Of a stretch of DNA of 64,000 bases, positions 3,714 to 58,913 are shown piece by piece (position 1 is the first letter of the stretch; each line of letters starts with the position of its first letter). Below the pieces are notes generated by a model. The model had not been told where the DNA came from and searched no databases. It worked only from the letters and a program-made list of their open reading frames with translations. The stretch is from Fidelibacterota bacterium (GTDB lineage: Bacteria; Fidelibacterota; UBA8477; JABMPR01). Where the stretch lies: positions 124,001 to 188,000 of the forward strand of contig JAIPJM010000001.1 in assembly GCA_021734255.1 (NCBI GenBank), read 5' to 3'. A program made the translations under genes and the position numbers.

Positions 3714-4790
3714 ATGTTAAGAAATAAACAATTATGGCTGGTCGTCACTGCCCTACTCCTGGCCTGGGCTTGTGCCGAAAAAGAGCCGGCCTTTCCTTGG
3801 GTGAAAGACATCAACGCTGAAGTTGACACCCAAGGGAAAATGGTGGGATATGAATTTTGGGCCAAGTGGTGAGGTTCCTGTATGCGGCTGGAAGCCGAAA
3901 CGTGGACCGACCCTGACCTTATCGCCTACGCGAAAGAACACTTTATTGCTTATCACCTCAACGTGGACTCTACTGAGAGCAATGAACTAAAAAAAAGATT
4001 TAATATTAGGGGAATTCCTTCTTTTGTTTTTGTAGACGAAGAAGGGAATGAAGTAGACCGGATCATTGGTTTTATGCCCCCGGAGGAATACCTGGCTGAA
4101 ATGAAACGCATCCGGGAAGGGATAAACACAATCCCCGATCTAATGAGCCGCCTTGATGAAGATCCAGAGAATGTTGACCTGATAAAGACCCTGGCTGAAA
4201 AAGTCGAAGCTATGGGTGGATTGAAAGCCTCCGTAAGTTACTGGGAGATGATCTTCGAAATGGACGAGGTTGACGAGACCTCCCGTGCCCTGGCAAGCTT
4301 AAAGATGGCTCTTTTCCTCTCACAGGAAAAAGAAGACCCAGAGATGCTGATCTCTTTTATTGGCAGCGCCACCAACACGGAAGTCTTGCCCGAAGCCCAT
4401 CGTGCCCTGAAGGATTTTTACCGCAAACAGGGAAACAAAAAGGCTGAAGCAGAAGCATATCGTCGCTATGTAGATTTTATGTCAGGGCTGAAGAAAGAAA
4501 CACCAAGCCTTCTGAATGGATATGCCTGGAGAATGACACAACTTGGTATGAACCTTGAGAATGCACTTCAGCGTATCGACCAGGCCATCGGCATGTTCGA
4601 TGAAGATTATGATAACCGTGCCAGAGCCCAGATCATGGACACCAAAGGCGAGGTCCTCTGGAAGCTGGATCGTATTGACGAAGCCGTTGCCGTTATGGAT
4701 GCGTGTATCGCACTTCAACCGGATGACAACTACTATAAGGAACAGAAAGGCAAGTTCCTGGGAAAGGACGCTGAGACCCCCGAAGCGTAA
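3714..4790 (+). CDS. Thioredoxin-fold lipoprotein with TPR-like C-terminus; candidate selenoprotein (UGSC motif, in-frame TGA at 3870-3872)
   Basis: ATG at 3714 is in the same frame as the listed ORF 3882-4790. Readthrough gives MLRNKQLWLVVTALLLAWACAEKE...GYEFWAKW-U-GSCMRLEAETWTDPDLIAYAKEHFIAYHLNVDS...IRGIPSFVFVDEEG, a continuous thioredoxin fold. Confidence 0.8.
3885..3897 (+). promoter_or_regulatory. Candidate bacterial SECIS apical hairpin
   Basis: CGGCT-GGA-AGCCG: perfect 5-bp stem, G at the first loop positions, loop starts 17 nt after the TGA. Confidence 0.55.
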
Positions 4791-4814
4791 GCTCTTCTTT
4801 CTCGATGATTCATT

Positions 4815-4860
4815 AAGCCCTGTCCCGACAAGCATGTCGGGTTGGGGCTTTTTTGTTTTT
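4815..4860 (+). terminator. Rho-independent terminator
   Basis: AAGCCC..CCCGACAagcaTGTCGGG..GGGGCTT followed by TTTTTGTTTTT. Confidence 0.8.
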
Positions 4861-5170
4861 AACAGATCGCCCTACCCGCTGACCCACAGTTTATTGTCAG
4901 ACTGACCCCTGAGCTGTCTCACTGCCTGCCAAGCCGTAACTCGAACCCCGCCACGGCGGGGAATGAGTGTAGGCTGGAGTCTGCCCGCCAAGTCGAAGCT
5001 GAAAAGGGAGGCTGGTCGAAGTGCGAAGGGGAAATATCCTGATCCAGGGTTAAGAATTGTTCACAGTGGCTCAAGATTCTCCGTTCCACCGACGGTTACA
5101 CTCAGCATGACAGGCTACGGCGTCCGAGGGGGGCGCCCCACAAAGGCAAAACGGTGAAGCTTAGACATAA

Positions 5171-5203
5171 AAAAAAGGCCCGGCAATATGCCAGGCCTTT
5201 TGA
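5171..5203. terminator. Bidirectional terminator
   Basis: AAAAGGCC..GGCaatatGCC..GGCCTTTT. Confidence 0.75.
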
Positions 5204-5223
5204 TTATTACCAGCTTGCTTGAG

Positions 5224-7593
5224 CTAGAATGAGAATCCAGTCTCGATGACCGTGGAGCTGATCACCTCATCTGACCCTGCGTCTCTATCGATCTCACCGT
5301 CGCCATCCAGGTCACGGAAAGTCGTACGCATGTCCCAGGTCAGGGTGGCACCGCCACCAAGTTCGAACACAACCTTATAACCCATTAGGGTTCCTTCGCT
5401 ATAGATATCGAAGGGGTCATCCACATTCATGCGATTCAGGTAGGCCGATGCCCCAGCCAGTTTTGGCACCAGGTCTTTAGCCAGATCAATGGACCCATAG
5501 ATACCCTTGACAGGATCAGCGCCATCCTGGATCATGTGCTGATAGGCGCCATTCACCGTGACCAGACTGAAAATATCCACGCTCAACATACCAAAGACAC
5601 CCTGCATGGGTGTTGTGTTCAGCATTCTGGCATCACGGGTCAGTGGCTTCATGATCTCACCATTGTTGAAATACTGCATGGCAACACGATCCAGATCATA
5701 GTTCTGGTCCATCAAACCGAAGACAAAATTCTCTCCGGTCATGCGGTATTCGAGACCCAAATGGATGAAACTAAACAATGAGGCACGGATACCAGGAATG
5801 GTGACCCCCCAACCATGCTTGACCTCTGTTGAGTCCAAGCCGTTTGCGACGTTGAAGGTATATTCATGGTGATCACCCATATACATACCGGCCTCAGTAA
5901 AGACAAGTATATCCAGGATCTTATTGCTGAAGACCGGATAGCCCACATCAACACTGACACCCAGCAGGGTGGAGCGTTTATCCTTTAGATTAAAGGGGTT
6001 AGGCTTCACATCAGCACTATCGGGATCTTCCCAGAGCACACCAGGAAATCCATCAACTTCACCATCGTTGTTGAGGTCGAGACCTAGCTCGAGGATGTTA
6101 TCATTATCCCGGTCATAATCACTCTTATCTTCAATTCCATCACCATCGGAATCCAACCAGGCTGTATCATCATCAGGGAAATCATCCACGATGTTCGGAC
6201 GGCCATCATCGTCATCATCTTTGAATCCATTGTACTGGTTGATATCGACAGCTGCCGTTACACCAAACTGGAGTTTGCCCAGGCTGTAAGTTGTTCTTAA
6301 ACTTGCAAGTCCAAGCTCTTTGACATTGGCCCACATGGCTTCGAAACCCAGGCTACCCCGGGTAAAGCCCACATGGGTACCGATCTTGCGAACAGAAGGA
6401 TATTCCATCATGTTGTTATAGTTGTTGACGAACATACCATACCCGATGACCACCTTTTCAAGTGTACCCACTCGGATGTATAGTGGATCCTCTGGCTGTC
6501 CCCAACGGACATACATGACCTTATCCGCAATATTCTCTGCTCCTTGCCATTTTTCCCAGACGACATCCCCGTCCTGGTTCATATAAAAGACCAGGTCAAG
6601 TCCGATACCCAGTTTTCCGATGGAAATATCGGGTCGCAAGGCGATCTGGTTATAGAGCACACCATCGATCGTTACAGCGCCAAGAGCACCGTTCATGGCC
6701 AGCGCATCACCAAACAAACCACCACCCTCACTTTCAGGCTCGGTATCTTCTTCAGGTTCCGCTTTCGGAGCAGGCGCTGCTGGCGGGGGTGTCGTTGTTA
6801 CAACAGGCGTCTCCTCGTCAACGGCGGTATCATCAACAACGGGCTCATCTACTGTTTCTTCTTCAGTCGCAACAGAGTCAGAGGCGGCTTCTTCATCCTC
6901 CCCTTGCTCTACCTCGCCAATCCCCTCTTCAGGATCTTCAGGGATACTGCCCTCTTCAGTAGGGTCGGTCTGAATGTAGCCGTCTGTGGTTGAGTTGACG
7001 GTTTCGCCGGCGCCGGCAGTACTGATCATGCCAGTCAGGTTGTTCATCACATCAACAACTCCCTCAAGGACGATGACATTATCACCCTCTTCCGGGTCAG
7101 AGATGGTCCAGAACTCAGTCCCCTTGATAGAGGCAACGGAGGTCGGTGTGTGCAGTTGAAATTCAAAGTCTGCACCTTTCGTATATTTTGTAAGCGCCTG
7201 ACCATAGTCGAGCCTGACGTGATAGGCTGAACCGCTAAGGTCTTCAACCATTGTGATCGCTACTTCCGTGTTCTCACGAAGTTTGACCTGGCTCTTATCG
7301 TCCAGGAGCAGCATGACGGCAAATCCGTCATTGACCTTGATCTGGTCGTTGGTTTCCAGGATCGTACCCATGACAACAGCCTGATCATAGTCCATTGCTT
7401 CTGCTTTTTGTAGCAGAACATCCCCCTGAACCCTTGAAATGACAGCTACTTTGTCAGCAAAAGCAGTAAAGGCGATCAGGGTTGACAGTAAAAAAGTAAC
7501 ATTTTTTCTCATCGGCGAAGTCCTCATATTATGGTCCTTGATCAAATCAATCTGATTCAGTACGGAATTTAATGGCTTGAAATGGTGCGCCAA
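5224..7593 (-). CDS. FecR-domain protein fused to a putative outer-membrane beta-barrel with Asp-rich Ca-binding (TSP3-like) insertions
   Basis: Signal peptide RKNVTFLLSTLIAFTAFA; FecR-like region (LHTPTSVASIKGTEFW); acidic/Pro linker; DSDGDGIEDKSDYDRDND repeats; C-terminal ...ETGFSF. Likely start is the internal Met-Arg-Lys near 7512. Confidence 0.75.
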   Translation of the reverse strand: MAHHFKPLNSVLNQIDLIKDHNMRTSPMRKNVTFLLSTLIAFTAFADKVAVISRVQGDVLLQKAEAMDYDQAVVMGTILETNDQIKVNDGFAVMLLLDDKSQVKLRENTEVAITMVEDLSGSAYHVRLDYGQALTKYTKGADFEFQLHTPTSVASIKGTEFWTISDPEEGDNVIVLEGVVDVMNNLTGMISTAGAGETVNSTTDGYIQTDPTEEGSIPEDPEEGIGEVEQGEDEEAASDSVATEEETVDEPVVDDTAVDEETPVVTTTPPPAAPAPKAEPEEDTEPESEGGGLFGDALAMNGALGAVTIDGVLYNQIALRPDISIGKLGIGLDLVFYMNQDGDVVWEKWQGAENIADKVMYVRWGQPEDPLYIRVGTLEKVVIGYGMFVNNYNNMMEYPSVRKIGTHVGFTRGSLGFEAMWANVKELGLASLRTTYSLGKLQFGVTAAVDINQYNGFKDDDDDGRPNIVDDFPDDDTAWLDSDGDGIEDKSDYDRDNDNILELGLDLNNDGEVDGFPGVLWEDPDSADVKPNPFNLKDKRSTLLGVSVDVGYPVFSNKILDILVFTEAGMYMGDHHEYTFNVANGLDSTEVKHGWGVTIPGIRASLFSFIHLGLEYRMTGENFVFGLMDQNYDLDRVAMQYFNNGEIMKPLTRDARMLNTTPMQGVFGMLSVDIFSLVTVNGAYQHMIQDGADPVKGIYGSIDLAKDLVPKLAGASAYLNRMNVDDPFDIYSEGTLMGYKVVFELGGGATLTWDMRTTFRDLDGDGEIDRDAGSDEVISSTVIETGFSF

Positions 7594-53174: not shown

Positions 53175-53413
53175 CACCTATCGCCTATCCCGAATAAGGG
53201 CTCGTATAATTGTCCATTGTTATTACTTTATCGCATCAATTATGAACAGCTCGAGAGGAATATGGCGCAAGGTCGAGGCATGCTGTGGTGATATGCTATC
53301 CAGACCTCTGCGAGAAAATTTTTACTGCGAATTCATACGGGAGTTATACATAAAAAACTATAGAGCACGTAGTTAGCCAGTCAAAAATGGATTGTACTGT
53401 TAAAGGGAGGACA

Positions 53414-54589
53414 ACGATGAAGTTTGGAGTCAAATTCTATTCTGATGACGAGGAAAAGAAATTACAAAAAACAGGATTGCATAGCCGTTTCAAACACCTT
53501 GTTGATAATGGGTTCGAATGTGGTGAGAATGATTTATTGTCATATGGTATGTTCAGAGAACATAAGGATGCTCCAGGATACAGGAATTACAGCGAATTGT
53601 CAAAAAAAGCCGATTCTAGACGCGAAATCATACAGGATTATTTTGAACTAAATTCTGGTCATCTCCGATCAATATTTAACCGTGGTGAAGATAGTGACCC
53701 TTGGGTGACGGAAATGATGGGTGTGGGCGCGGGTCTTGCATTGTGCAGTGAAGCCTACGGACTTACTGAGGCCGATTGGCAAAAAATTCCCATTAGTGGT
53801 GAAAAAGACCTCGACTTCGAGATAGCAGCCACCGGAAGTGATTTTGTTAAAATGGAAGCGAAAGGAACAATATATAAAAATTCAAATGACCGAAAATCTC
53901 TAGCTGGTCACGCGTCCCGTGTTCGAAAAAAGAAGGAACAACAAAATGTAAAGCATCCTAGCTCAAGTTTGATTGGGGTTATTACGGCATTTCCAGAGGA
54001 GCAAGAAGATCCCTGCTGCTACCTGATGGATCCACCTGCTCCAAACATTGAATGGGATCCAGCCTTCTATCGCATTGTAGCTAGACTCTATTACTACTAC
54101 AAAAACATTCATAGTGTACTAAAATCACACATGCTTATTGCTCTTATAAATCGAATCCATGATATGATTAGCATAGGTAGCTACAAAGAATTTGAGGGTA
54201 AACCACTTCTGAATGTAAATGGGAATCCCTTTAAGGTGCCCAATTCCGCCTATAATTTACGAACGAATATTTTAGGGGAATCCTTCTGCGAAGTTTTTCC
54301 AATCTCGAATCGTGAGGGTGAGGCTTTTATATGGGGTATGGACTACAGCATCCTATCGCTTTTGGTAGAACAGAACTTCGAAGGAATCCTTGAATATTCA
54401 AGCAAGCTATCAAAAAGTTATTCAGGAACAACTATCGCTAGAGTGACTCTCCAGAACGCAAAAAGACTCGGGATAAAACCTAATTCTGAGAATAGTATTG
54501 GGCGAAATCGAATTGCCGTTCCATGTAAAATAAAAGTAATTCGAAACACAGCGGGCAAGGTGTTTGGTCTCATACAAGTTGCTGGCTAA
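53414..54589 (+). CDS. Cassette 1: PD-(D/E)xK nuclease-like protein of unknown function
   Basis: GEKDLDFEIAATGSDFVKMEAKG resembles the D-x(n)-ExK core; ORF open from 53387; stop lies inside attC R''. Confidence 0.55.
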   Translation, partial: TMKFGVKFYSDDEEKKLQKTGLHSRFKHLVDNGFECGENDLLSYGMFREHKDAPGYRNYSELSKKADSRREIIQDYFELNSGHLRSIFNRGEDSDPWVTEMMGVGAGLALCSEAYGLTEADWQKIPISGEKDLDFEIAATGSDFVKMEAKGTIYKNSNDRKSLAGHASRVRKKKEQQNVKHPSSSLIGVITAFPEEQEDPCCYLMDPPAPNIEWDPAFYRIVARLYYYYKNIHSVLKSHMLIALINRIHDMISIGSYKEFEGKPLLNVNGNPFKVPNSAYNLRTNILGESFCEVFPISNREGEAFIWGMDYSILSLLVEQNFEGILEYSSKLSKSYSGTTIARVTLQNAKRLGIKPNSENSIGRNRIAVPCKIKVIRNTAGKVFGLIQVAG

Positions 54590-54710
54590 CAAAGGATTAG
54601 AGCGGACACACAAATCGATCGGGGGCACGATAATTGAACAACAAGTATAAACGGTTATCAACATGGACTAGTTGCTCCACCAAAAGCAACTAAAGCATAA
54701 AGCGTTAGCT
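54582..54710 (+). other. attC site of cassette 1
   Basis: R'' CTGGCTAAC (54582-54590); R' GCGTTAGCT (54702-54710); internal GTTGCT..AGCAAC hairpin. Confidence 0.75.
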
Positions 54711-54733
54711 AGACAAACCAAAAGGGGCAGGCG

Positions 54734-56548
54734 ATGAGATTACGTTCAAGAATTATTTTATTCTCAATTGAGCTTTTTGTCATTCTTGTTGGATCTTGGT
54801 TAATCACGGGATCATGGATATCGGTTGAGTCATGGTTTGGCGCTCTTGTAGCATTAGCAATTAACTTTTTCTTACTTGAACCATGGTTTTCAAGACCGGT
54901 TGATACTTTAGCAAATTCTATTGTCTCTCTGATATTGGTAGCTGTTGCGGACAAATCCTATTCTGCCTATGGATGGAATATTTTTACGGTATTTCTAATT
55001 GTCGGGGTAGTTATTTCTCTACTGGCAATATTATTAAATCAATATCCAAATGCTAAACTTCATGGAACAAGTCAGTTGTTCTCAAAGCTGTGCAGAATAT
55101 TTACTGCGGGAAAATATTACACAGGAATATACTTTTTAGCTCTAATAGGTCTTCATCAGCCAATTGAGATAGAATTTTGGTATCTAACTTCTCTGTGGCT
55201 TATAGTTGTCACAATCCCTCTCTTGCCGTTTCAAGATTTTTTAAAAACTCATGGTGTTGACAAATACGATTTAGCCATTGAAAATTCTGTAAGCCCCAAT
55301 AAGATTCTTCTTAATGCTCAAACTCTTCCTGCACTGGGTAGGGTAATCTCGTTAACCGCAAATGGAGTTGAGTGGGACGGAGTGATAACTGGTCGAATAG
55401 TTAGGCCCAAAAACATATGGGGTGAAATTTCTTTATTTAATGCAGAGGATCTTGAGAAAGCAACTCAGTCAAGTCCCATAATCATTGATAAAAATGAAGA
55501 AATTCACCAAAATATTCTTGGTTCAGTAGATGTAGGCTCAACTCAAGATGTTATTGTCTTCTCTCCACTAATGCCGATCAGAATTGGTGATGTAGTTTTT
55601 GTAAATACTCCCGATGGTGAAGTTTTCTACCAAGTTGCAAGAGGTGAAATTGCAGATAAAAAAGTGCAAGGGGGGGGCAGAATATTTGAGAAGGCAGTCG
55701 CAGTACAGCTAGGAATATTTAACTCAGAAAACCAGAGAATCTCGATACGAGGCTGGACACCCCCACCAGGAGAATTTGTTCGAAAACCGAATGTTGATGT
55801 GCCTAATATTTCTGATGATAATTGGGTAAATAAAAGAAAGCTGGGCGCTATTATTGGAACAAATATACCCGTGTATTTAATAAAGCGGAACCTGCTTGAG
55901 GGGCATCTCGCAATGTTGGGGATGACAAGGATGGGAAAAACTACATTGACTCGAAAAATAGCTAATTTCTACAGTACAATGGCAAGTGTAATCATTTTTG
56001 ACCAAACAGGTGAATATATTTCAAAATTTGGGCTAACACCTTATGATCCAGCTGTACATATATCTAAACCAGGAGTGAGCGTATTTGAACCGGCACCAGC
56101 AACAGTAGTTCCTGATGAGGGACTAAACCAATTTAAAGATATACTAAATACAGCGTTGCTAGAGTACCGTGCTGGGAAGCAATTTAGACGCGTGATCATT
56201 ATTGATGAAGCTCACCAATTTGTACCAGAACCTACAATGTTAGGTTTCAATATGCCAGGGCGTGAGAGCTCCATCACATTTGGTATGTATATGATGCAAG
56301 TTCGTAAATATGGAATTAGTGTTGTTCTAATTAGTCAAAGAACTGCTGTTGTAGCAAAAAGTGCACTTTCTCAGTGTGAAAACATCATTGCCTTTAAAAG
56401 TGTCGACAAGACTGGACTTGATTATCTCAATTCCATTTTGGGTCCTGAGTCAGCTTCAGTACTCCCGATACTTGCACAGGGTCAAGCACTAGTTTCTGGT
56501 CCTGCATTTTCTTCTGATCATGCAGTTGCTGTTGATGTGATTGAATAG
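54734..56548 (+). CDS. Cassette 2: membrane-anchored HerA/DUF87-like ATPase
   Basis: N-terminal TM helices; Walker A GMTRMGKTTLTRK; Walker B RRVIIIDEAHQFVPE; SVVLISQRTA. Confidence 0.85.
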   Translation: MRLRSRIILFSIELFVILVGSWLITGSWISVESWFGALVALAINFFLLEPWFSRPVDTLANSIVSLILVAVADKSYSAYGWNIFTVFLIVGVVISLLAILLNQYPNAKLHGTSQLFSKLCRIFTAGKYYTGIYFLALIGLHQPIEIEFWYLTSLWLIVVTIPLLPFQDFLKTHGVDKYDLAIENSVSPNKILLNAQTLPALGRVISLTANGVEWDGVITGRIVRPKNIWGEISLFNAEDLEKATQSSPIIIDKNEEIHQNILGSVDVGSTQDVIVFSPLMPIRIGDVVFVNTPDGEVFYQVARGEIADKKVQGGGRIFEKAVAVQLGIFNSENQRISIRGWTPPPGEFVRKPNVDVPNISDDNWVNKRKLGAIIGTNIPVYLIKRNLLEGHLAMLGMTRMGKTTLTRKIANFYSTMASVIIFDQTGEYISKFGLTPYDPAVHISKPGVSVFEPAPATVVPDEGLNQFKDILNTALLEYRAGKQFRRVIIIDEAHQFVPEPTMLGFNMPGRESSITFGMYMMQVRKYGISVVLISQRTAVVAKSALSQCENIIAFKSVDKTGLDYLNSILGPESASVLPILAQGQALVSGPAFSSDHAVAVDVIE

Positions 56549-56674
56549 CTAGCTAACAAAAGTTTAGAGCTGACTCACCAACGTGAAGTGGTGTAGGAAT
56601 AAGATAAAACAGAACAATCAATTTGTGATTATCGATGCAGTTTTGGGAAGCAGCTCAAACTCAGAGCGTTAGGC
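56549..56674 (+). other. attC site of cassette 2
   Basis: R'' CTAGCTAAC; L'' AGTTTAGAGCTG pairs with L' CAGCTCAAACTC leaving one extrahelical A; R' GCGTTAGGC; CACCA..TGGTG terminal hairpin. Confidence 0.85.
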
Positions 56675-56680
56675 TTAACT

Positions 56681-57457
56681 ATGAATGATCGAAACATATT
56701 TTACAGTGGCTTTACAAAGAAGCATACTCCGGATTGGAAATGTCCGACTTGTGGCAAGGGTAAACTAACTCTTCAGGCTGAGACTCTACGCTTTGATGAA
56801 ACAAGAGAATCCAAGGATACAAGATGGCCCAAACCTGAAAGTGAAGTACATCCTACAGATATAAAATATGTATATGCATGTTTGTTTAAGTGTTCGAGGA
56901 CGAATTGTGGGGAGATTGTTTCAAGTTCTGGACGCGGAACCAATATTGGTGAGCCAACTTGGGATGAGAAGGGAGAGGACTATGAGGAAGTATTTTTTGA
57001 GTACTTCGAACCTAAAATATTCATTCCTCCTCTAATACTATTTGAAATGCCTAAGCAAATACCAGAGAAGGTCAGGCATGAACTGCTTTTCTCTTTTGGT
57101 TTCTTCTTTGTCGATCCGAAGGCTGCAGCTAATCATGCAAGGATGGCTCTTGAATTGTTGCTTGATGATCTAAAGGTCAATAGGTTTGAGGTTAAGAACA
57201 GAAAAAGGCGGATGCTTTCCCTTCATAAGAGAATCGAGTTACTTTCCCCAAAATATGAAGCAATTCGAGAGCTCTGTTTTGCAATTAAATGGTCTGGTAA
57301 TGCTGGCAGTCACAGCAGAGAAACCTTGAGTAAAGAAAATATTCTGGATATATACGATATAATGTCGAGCATATTTACAACCTTGTACGATCAGGAGCAG
57401 AAAAGAATAAATAAGCTCGCAAAGTCCATACATAAAAACAGGGGGCCGAAAAGGTAA
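56681..57457 (+). CDS. Cassette 3: N-terminal Zn-ribbon plus DUF4145-like domain protein
   Basis: CPTCGKGKL...CSRTNCGEI; NHARMALELLLDDLKV...RKRRMLSLHKRIELL...IKWSGNAGSHS. Confidence 0.75.
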   Translation: MNDRNIFYSGFTKKHTPDWKCPTCGKGKLTLQAETLRFDETRESKDTRWPKPESEVHPTDIKYVYACLFKCSRTNCGEIVSSSGRGTNIGEPTWDEKGEDYEEVFFEYFEPKIFIPPLILFEMPKQIPEKVRHELLFSFGFFFVDPKAAANHARMALELLLDDLKVNRFEVKNRKRRMLSLHKRIELLSPKYEAIRELCFAIKWSGNAGSHSRETLSKENILDIYDIMSSIFTTLYDQEQKRINKLAKSIHKNRGPKR

Positions 57458-57473
57458 GCCTAAGGCGTTAGGT
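57455..57473 (+). other. Collapsed attC-like junction (cassette 3/4)
   Basis: TAAGCCTAA-GGC-GTTAGGT: R'' and R' separated by about 3 nt. Confidence 0.6.
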
Positions 57474-57483
57474 GTGTTTAAGC

Positions 57484-58119
57484 ATGCAGAAGTTTAAAAT
57501 TAAGATTCAAGATGATAGTGACACTGAGCCAAGAGAAATTGCTATAATGCTGGACTCCAAAAACATTAGTATCTTAAATAATTACCTTGAATATTCTGAA
57601 CACTTGTTTGCATCAGAATTCCTAAAGGTCGCGAATGACACTTCCCTGAAATTTGGGTGGAACAAAGACGAGGGCTATACGACAACCTATACTCTTCCTC
57701 CCAATGAAATGATTGAAGCATTCCTTCATCGCTTACGTCCATTTGTGCTCAAAAAGGAAGACACCCACTTCATGAAAGTATACGGTATAATCTCAAAGAA
57801 CATAAACGATCAGTCTATTCGAGCCATTCTAAAAGACACTCGCCAATACTGGGAGGGAGAGAAAATCCAACAGCTTTTTAAAATATCCGACAATGACGGT
57901 ATTTTAAACTCGCATGACTCATTAATGAAATTCCTAAACGCCTATGAGTATCACCGAGACAAGGAGAAAGCAAAAAGATTTGCTAGTATTCAAGAGATGT
58001 TCGGTGGCAAGGACGGCCTAAAGTCTTTTTATCTCTTTATGCTGACTGATATCGCTCAAGCCATCGGGAAGCTTGCTGGCATAGTTGAAGTAATTTTAAA
58101 AAAGCGCGATAAATATTGA
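57484..58119 (+). CDS. Cassette 4: hypothetical protein
   Basis: 211-aa ORF from ATG 57484, bounded by cassette boxes. Confidence 0.65.
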   Translation: MQKFKIKIQDDSDTEPREIAIMLDSKNISILNNYLEYSEHLFASEFLKVANDTSLKFGWNKDEGYTTTYTLPPNEMIEAFLHRLRPFVLKKEDTHFMKVYGIISKNINDQSIRAILKDTRQYWEGEKIQQLFKISDNDGILNSHDSLMKFLNAYEYHRDKEKAKRFASIQEMFGGKDGLKSFYLFMLTDIAQAIGKLAGIVEVILKKRDKY

Positions 58120-58134
58120 GTTCAGTACAACAGG

Positions 58135-58158
58135 AAACACACCTAACAGCTTATAGGT
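58135..58158 (+). other. Collapsed attC-like junction (cassette 4/5)
   Basis: AAACACACCTAAC-AGC-TTATAGGT; R'' is the 13-nt reverse complement of the cassette 4 start. Confidence 0.65.
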
Positions 58159-58164
58159 ATATTA

Positions 58165-58758
58165 GTGAATTTCTTTAAACAATCCATTTTGATCACCATA
58201 CAGGGACTAATATTTCCTGTGCTGGTGACGATGATAAGTGCTGTCGGAGAAGGAAAGTCTGGTGAGGAGAACAGCTTTATAAAATCATTTGCATCAAATG
58301 TACTAAACTTTATTACCAACCACTGGCTACTACTTGTTATTATCTTTTTTTTGTCATTAGTAGCACTTCTAATTCGACTAAGAATAAGAAGTATCAGGAG
58401 ATTCCGCGATAATTCAATCATTCCAATTGCTATCTCACGGGGGGGAAGATACATAAAAGCTGGATACTTTGAGCATTCGAGTGTGTTGTGGCTTGTTACC
58501 TATCCCACACCCTGGGATCCTACGGATTTAAAAAACCCAAATCCCGATGAGTACGAAATAGACTTAATTCCATTTTGCCCACATTGTGAAGTTGAATTAG
58601 AAGAGGAAAAGAGATTTCTGTCTGGCTATAAGTGGTCTTGTATAAATTGTTCTTTTAAAAAAATAAGCGATTTCGACAGATCAATCATGAGCGATCGGGT
58701 TGAAAAGATTTTCAGGTCCTTAGCTAGAAAGAATAAAGCGAAGGTTAGGAAAATATAA
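58165..58758 (+). CDS. Cassette 5: two-TM protein with Zn-ribbon
   Basis: TM segments near residues 8-25 and 53-70; CPHCEVELEEEKRFLSGYKWSCINC; GTG start. Confidence 0.65.
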   Translation: MNFFKQSILITIQGLIFPVLVTMISAVGEGKSGEENSFIKSFASNVLNFITNHWLLLVIIFFLSLVALLIRLRIRSIRRFRDNSIIPIAISRGGRYIKAGYFEHSSVLWLVTYPTPWDPTDLKNPNPDEYEIDLIPFCPHCEVELEEEKRFLSGYKWSCINCSFKKISDFDRSIMSDRVEKIFRSLARKNKAKVRKI

Positions 58759-58913
58759 CTAAACACCTACCAAGCGTGTGCTGCAGACTCAGAAGGGGAG
58801 ATTACTTAATGATTATTATATACAACTATACAGAAAAGAAAGAAATGGGGTTGTGCTGCAAAAGCGCGGACCGTCGTGTGTATTATCAGGCAAGAATTTA
58901 CCAAAGAAACGGA

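Follow-up and report, generated by a model that had tools for sequence, protein, structure and literature searches.

Collapsed attC sites in a small cassette array of a Neomarinimicrobiota genome: a probable case of cassette fusion by deletion

Fused cassettes and the array under study

Fused cassettes with a truncated attC are already documented, and the array described here is a further example. One described class comprises attC sites truncated by deletion, in which R'' alone is recognisable (Partridge 2009, as cited in PMC12901181). As presented in these sources, the members of this class and the class 1 integron fusion blaGES-1/aacA4 (PMC4670013) share with our array the deletion of the attC body, the persistence of R''/R' remnants only and the joining of the ORFs. 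With an attC of which 6 bp remained, no circle carrying just one of the two genes was obtained (PMC4670013); the paper also cites another truncated site that was still recognised. Unlike these class 1 cases, the array described here is found in an uncultured phylum, has two such junctions in a row and retains a legible direct-repeat breakpoint at one of them; it is known from sequence.

The window, i.e. the whole 64-kb stretch of DNA that was analysed (G000:C14:124001-188000), belongs to a Neomarinimicrobiota assembly of 2.87 Mb that is 91% complete. A five-cassette array occupies approximately 53.37-58.88 kb of the window, with five ORFs that are all on the + strand. Its GC content (about 53.2 to 58.9 kb) is 38-42%, versus ~50% in the flanks. 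Its features are as follows, with bit scores from the covariance model CM R1.

53372..54590, + strand: cassette 1, start GTTAGCCAG; ORF 53387-54589, 400 aa; R'' CTGGCTAAC, 9/9 pairing with its own start
54582..54710, + strand: attC1, full length; 75.7 bits
54704..56557, + strand: cassette 2, start GTTAGCTAG; ORF 54734-56548, 604 aa, HerA-type ATPase
56549..56674, + strand: attC2, full length, typical of the genus; 101.8 bits
56668..57466, + strand: cassette 3, start GTTAGGCTTAAC; ORF 56681-57457, 258 aa, DUF4145; attC body lost
57455..57472, + strand: collapsed attC3 (mini3), TAAGCCTAA-GGC-GTTAGG; 57456-57470 matches a genus attC 3' end exactly (AAGCCTAAGGCGTTA)
57467..58150, + strand: cassette 4, start GTTAGGTGTGTTT; ORF 57472/57484-58119, 211-215 aa, no family; R'' AAACACACCTAAC at 58135-58147; attC body lost
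58135..58157, + strand: collapsed attC4 (mini4), AAACACACCTAAC-AGC-TTATAGG
58151..58771, + strand: cassette 5, start TTATAGGTATATTAG; ORF 58165-58758, 197 aa; R'' CTAAACACCTACC at 58759-58771
58763..58879, + strand: attC5, degenerate, near full length; 24 bits, E = 8e-4; last attC recognised in the array

Integron integrases scoring over the family cut-off are present in 42 of the 244 genomes of the phylum and in 11 of the 18 other genomes of the genus. None was found in G000, where the whole assembly has no TIGR02249 match over cut-off, an absence that is not certain because the assembly is 91% complete. With at least two attC sites (attC1, attC2 and attC5) and no integrase nearby in this 91% complete assembly, the array resembles a CALIN, from which it differs in that the absence of intI is uncertain and that intI is present in genomes of the same genus. 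Elsewhere in G000, three more attC sites are found at C22:132821, C43:36228 and C4:96893 (loci L112, L113 and L114), and no integrase was found there. The Rfam scan of the array region gave no match, and our literature search found no paper on integrons in Marinimicrobia. An empty insertion site, sought via the flanking genes, was not found; good homologues of the flanks are missing in the genus.

As for the first two cassettes (53387-56548), they code for a 400-aa protein without family and a membrane-anchored HerA-type ATPase with a weak match to anti-phage HerA models. A possible nuclease motif was noted by eye in the former, and judging from the sequences the two could be a nuclease-HerA defence pair.

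Two junctions without an attC body

The initial annotation had pointed out two boundaries at which R'' and R' abut, and both are borne out. At the 3/4 junction, TAAGCCTAA (57455-57463) is followed by GGC (57464-57466) and by GTTAGGTGTGTTT from 57467, and at the 4/5 junction AAACACACCTAAC (58135-58147) is followed by AGC (58148-58150) and by TTATAGG from 58151, with no L''/L' body in between in either case. The R'' and R' core boxes are thus separated by 3-4 nt, versus mostly 96-115 nt in the attC sites of the genus, the shortest non-collapsed spacing being 73. The second stem, namely the L''/L' boxes, the extrahelical bases and the central spacer, is absent from both junctions. The covariance model gives 10 bits for mini3 and no match for mini4. 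On the bottom strand, the collapsed junctions fold as weak 5-bp hairpins of -2.5 and -1.8 kcal/mol, unlike the stable hairpins expected of attC sites (-13.6 for attC2, -10.8 for attC1 and -28.3 kcal/mol for the attC of L147).

In both cases R'' pairs with the start of its own cassette, over 9 nt for cassette 3 and 13/13 nt for cassette 4. This cognate pairing is real, but it is not longer than typical, as had been proposed, because the ends of the genus cassettes commonly pair over 8-12 nt; 9 nt is normal and 13 nt slightly long. Pairing length alone is unremarkable, as the 64-kb window has three other 12-nt inverted repeats with a spacing of 300-1500 nt. What makes the terminal pairing of cassettes 3 and 4 noteworthy is its location exactly at the cassette junctions.

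A 6-nt deletion in the R'' of cassette 5 had also been suggested, wrongly so, as a degenerate, near-full-length attC is found at 58763-58879 (24 bits, E = 8e-4). The sequence AATATAAC, proposed earlier as that R'', overlaps the ORF's stop codon, and the R'' of attC5 is another sequence. The presence of an attC after cassette 5 therefore means that two junctions are collapsed, not three. If gaps are allowed, the R'' side of attC5 (CTAAACACCTACC, 58759-58771) is similar to the reverse complement of the cassette 5 start (CTAATATACCTATAAC). It also resembles the start of cassette 4, which was the basis for reading cassettes 4 and 5 as a single cassette ending at attC5; we dropped this reading, as a perfect R'' of cassette 4 itself is present at 58135.

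Probable deletion remnants and alternative origins

A consensus was built from 14 aligned attC sites of the genus and turned into a covariance model, which found attC sites in 17 of the 25 genomes searched and gave 121 matches in 41 loci; these 121 sites served for the consensus as well. In the 14-site alignment the 3' end reads ...CAGCTCAAGCCTAA(A/G)GC-GTTA. The 15-mer AAGCCTAA(A/G)GCGTTA forms the 3' end of 16 of the 119 attC sites from the genus. Across the searched loci, which amount to 882 kb when both strands are counted, its sole other occurrence is at mini3, which therefore holds a true attC 3' end. The same-genus integrons (G229, G233, G235 and others) have the same attC type and cognate cassette ends of ~9 nt or more; unlike ours, the arrays sampled are downstream of intI, and with few exceptions their sites are full length. 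In L056, L045, L047 and L052 the array is downstream of intI in the same direction, unlike in class 1 integrons. In alignment A1, many copies of the genus attC agree even in the loop that normally varies (ATGATGTGGATGGATACAATTATCGAACAAAGCGA), which suggests a recent spread from one source. Two attC scans demanding long R''/R' pairing within one linear site gave nothing useful, because the long pairing joins the start of a cassette to its own end.

A third collapsed site, GCGCATAACAAAAGCGTAGAGCGTTATACC, was found with the covariance model as a 29-nt match at G233:C40:91832-91860, in the same genus and in a long array that also contains intact sites. It fits a deletion between partial direct repeats, the L''-type AAGCTTAGAGC and the 3' end AAGC.TAGAGC. 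As G233 has intI, collapse is not confined to intI-less genomes. The purine-GC directly before (G)TT is kept in all three remnants, as in most intact sites. Array-wide scans for further collapsed junctions gave little above chance beyond those of the window itself (2 observed versus 0.2 expected at a score of at least 14, both at the edges of attC matches by eye). In total, three collapsed junctions were seen versus ~120 full or partial sites.

Both junctions of the window are very probably remnants of ordinary attC sites of the genus type whose bodies were lost by short deletions. The part lost would comprise L'', the variable terminal structure and L', with one breakpoint on the R'' side and the other on the R' side. 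This is one of the two options offered by the initial annotation, that of internally deleted sites, and it is supported by the match of mini3 to the exact genus 3' end and by the relatives of cassette 4 in cassettes with full attC sites. Junction 3/4 is a remnant of an attC, and its parent would have carried AAGCCTAA twice in direct orientation, once in the R'' of cassette 3 and once in the L'-proximal tail before R', because cassette 3 starts with GTTAGGCTTAAC, for which the cognate R'' would be AAGCCTAAC. Slippage of the strands across the hairpin of the folded site might then have left one copy of AAGCCTAA and GGC-GTTAGG, which gives the observed sequence exactly. A similar deletion is likely at junction 4/5, where an extra C and an absent G before TTATAGG are not accounted for by one slip between perfect repeats and leave at least two possible breakpoints, even when the 5'-arm and 3'-arm variants of the genus are taken into account. 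Direct repeats of at least 6 nt between the two arms are found in 20 of 64 intact sites versus ~6 in shuffles, a modest enrichment. For a mechanism, two neighbouring collapses in a single small array make a small data set. It is rather unlikely that the genus attC design, with its R''-like tail repeated beside R', entails an appreciable collapse rate, so that arrays would become fixed, operon-like blocks by built-in slippage.

The other option of the initial annotation was an unusual minimal type of recombination site, in which the ~25-nt junctions would be functional for the integron integrase or another tyrosine recombinase. The exact cognate pairing between R'' and cassette start over 9 and 13 nt, the two adjacent examples and the third one in G233 speak for it. 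Nevertheless, any past attC cassette bequeaths cognate pairing, the 3' remnant belongs to a full attC, and such junctions number three versus ~120 full or partial sites. In addition, the junctions are without an L box, extrahelical bases and a central spacer, all of which have been shown to matter for recombination at attC (PMC2727003); the attC of which 6 bp remained was no substrate (PMC4670013), and G000 has no integrase over the cut-off. With hairpins of -1.8 to -2.5 kcal/mol and cassettes that were not seen elsewhere in the genus, we consider this idea extremely improbable and do not retain it.

It is also conceivable, albeit very unlikely, that the integron integrase itself excised the attC bodies by aberrant R''-R' recombination within one site, rather than replication slippage. 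Both breakpoints are near the boxes, and cleavage within R'' is known from mutant sites (PMC2727003). However, junction 3/4 and the site in G233 are consistent with slippage between direct repeats, all the junctions retain between the boxes 3-13 nt that should be lost in a clean exchange from box to box, and the missing G at 4/5 is not predicted. As for an assembly artefact, the attC sites of the genus are near-repeats that a metagenome assembler might have collapsed, and contig ends interrupt many of the arrays. Nevertheless, the contig is 230 kb long with attC1 and attC2 intact, G233 provides a second case that is independent of it, and repeat misassembly would more likely drop whole cassettes than the body of one site; the probability of such an artefact appears minimal.

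Relatives of the cassettes and consequences of the probable fusion

The initial annotation had named homologous cassettes with full attC sites as a sign of simple deletion, and these were found at the family level for cassette 4; a search for the parental attC beside a close homologue gave none for cassette 3, 4 or 5. The parent sites are therefore deduced from the genus consensus. There is no sign of cassettes 3-5 in other genomes of the genus, and no homologous block was found among the other Neomarinimicrobiota genomes. When genomes were scanned with cassette 4 by itself, no relatives were found; a scan with a three-sequence alignment found 20 in many phyla, one of them with a clear cassette. 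The same-phylum genome G184 carries a relative of cassette 4. Another one, found among plasmids on pHRM2a of Desulforapulum autotrophicum (31% identity), adjoins lnu(F); behind it lies a full attC-like site, from R'' GGCCGAAC at ~6982 to R' at ~7102 of L011. In that plasmid (L011 ~4000-7500), a long near-identical intergenic repeat lies between cassettes, twice in tandem at ~7100-7500. In Gemmatimonadaceae, a relative has the cassette start GTTATGCGA, a matching R'' at its end and then a full attC (-28.3 kcal/mol on the bottom strand), and the same contig has the C-terminus of an integron integrase. As the pHRM2a and Gemmatimonadaceae relatives are distant, they support the deletion reading at the family level only.

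Since cassettes 3 and 4 have each lost nearly their whole attC, three genes are now joined as a block, and the most fitting reading of cassettes 3-5 is that of a single fused cassette resembling an operon. The remnant of a once-complete attC, the 15-nt 3' end at mini3, lies between intact ORFs, that of cassette 3 being full length relative to its DUF4145 homologues and that of cassette 4 aligning end to end with its homologues. By analogy with published fused cassettes, the block between attC2 and the degenerate attC5 would be excised, if at all, only as a unit, and it would be read through without intervening hairpins. The collapsed junctions, which lack the L boxes, extrahelical bases and central spacer (PMC2727003), are likely inactive as attC sites; this is not certain because of the truncated site still recognised, as cited in PMC4670013.

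Model-based attC finders will undercount cassettes at such collapsed junctions. The array illustrates how mobile cassettes can turn into fixed, operon-like blocks by loss of their recombination sites, here outside resistance integrons and with a breakpoint that is legible once.
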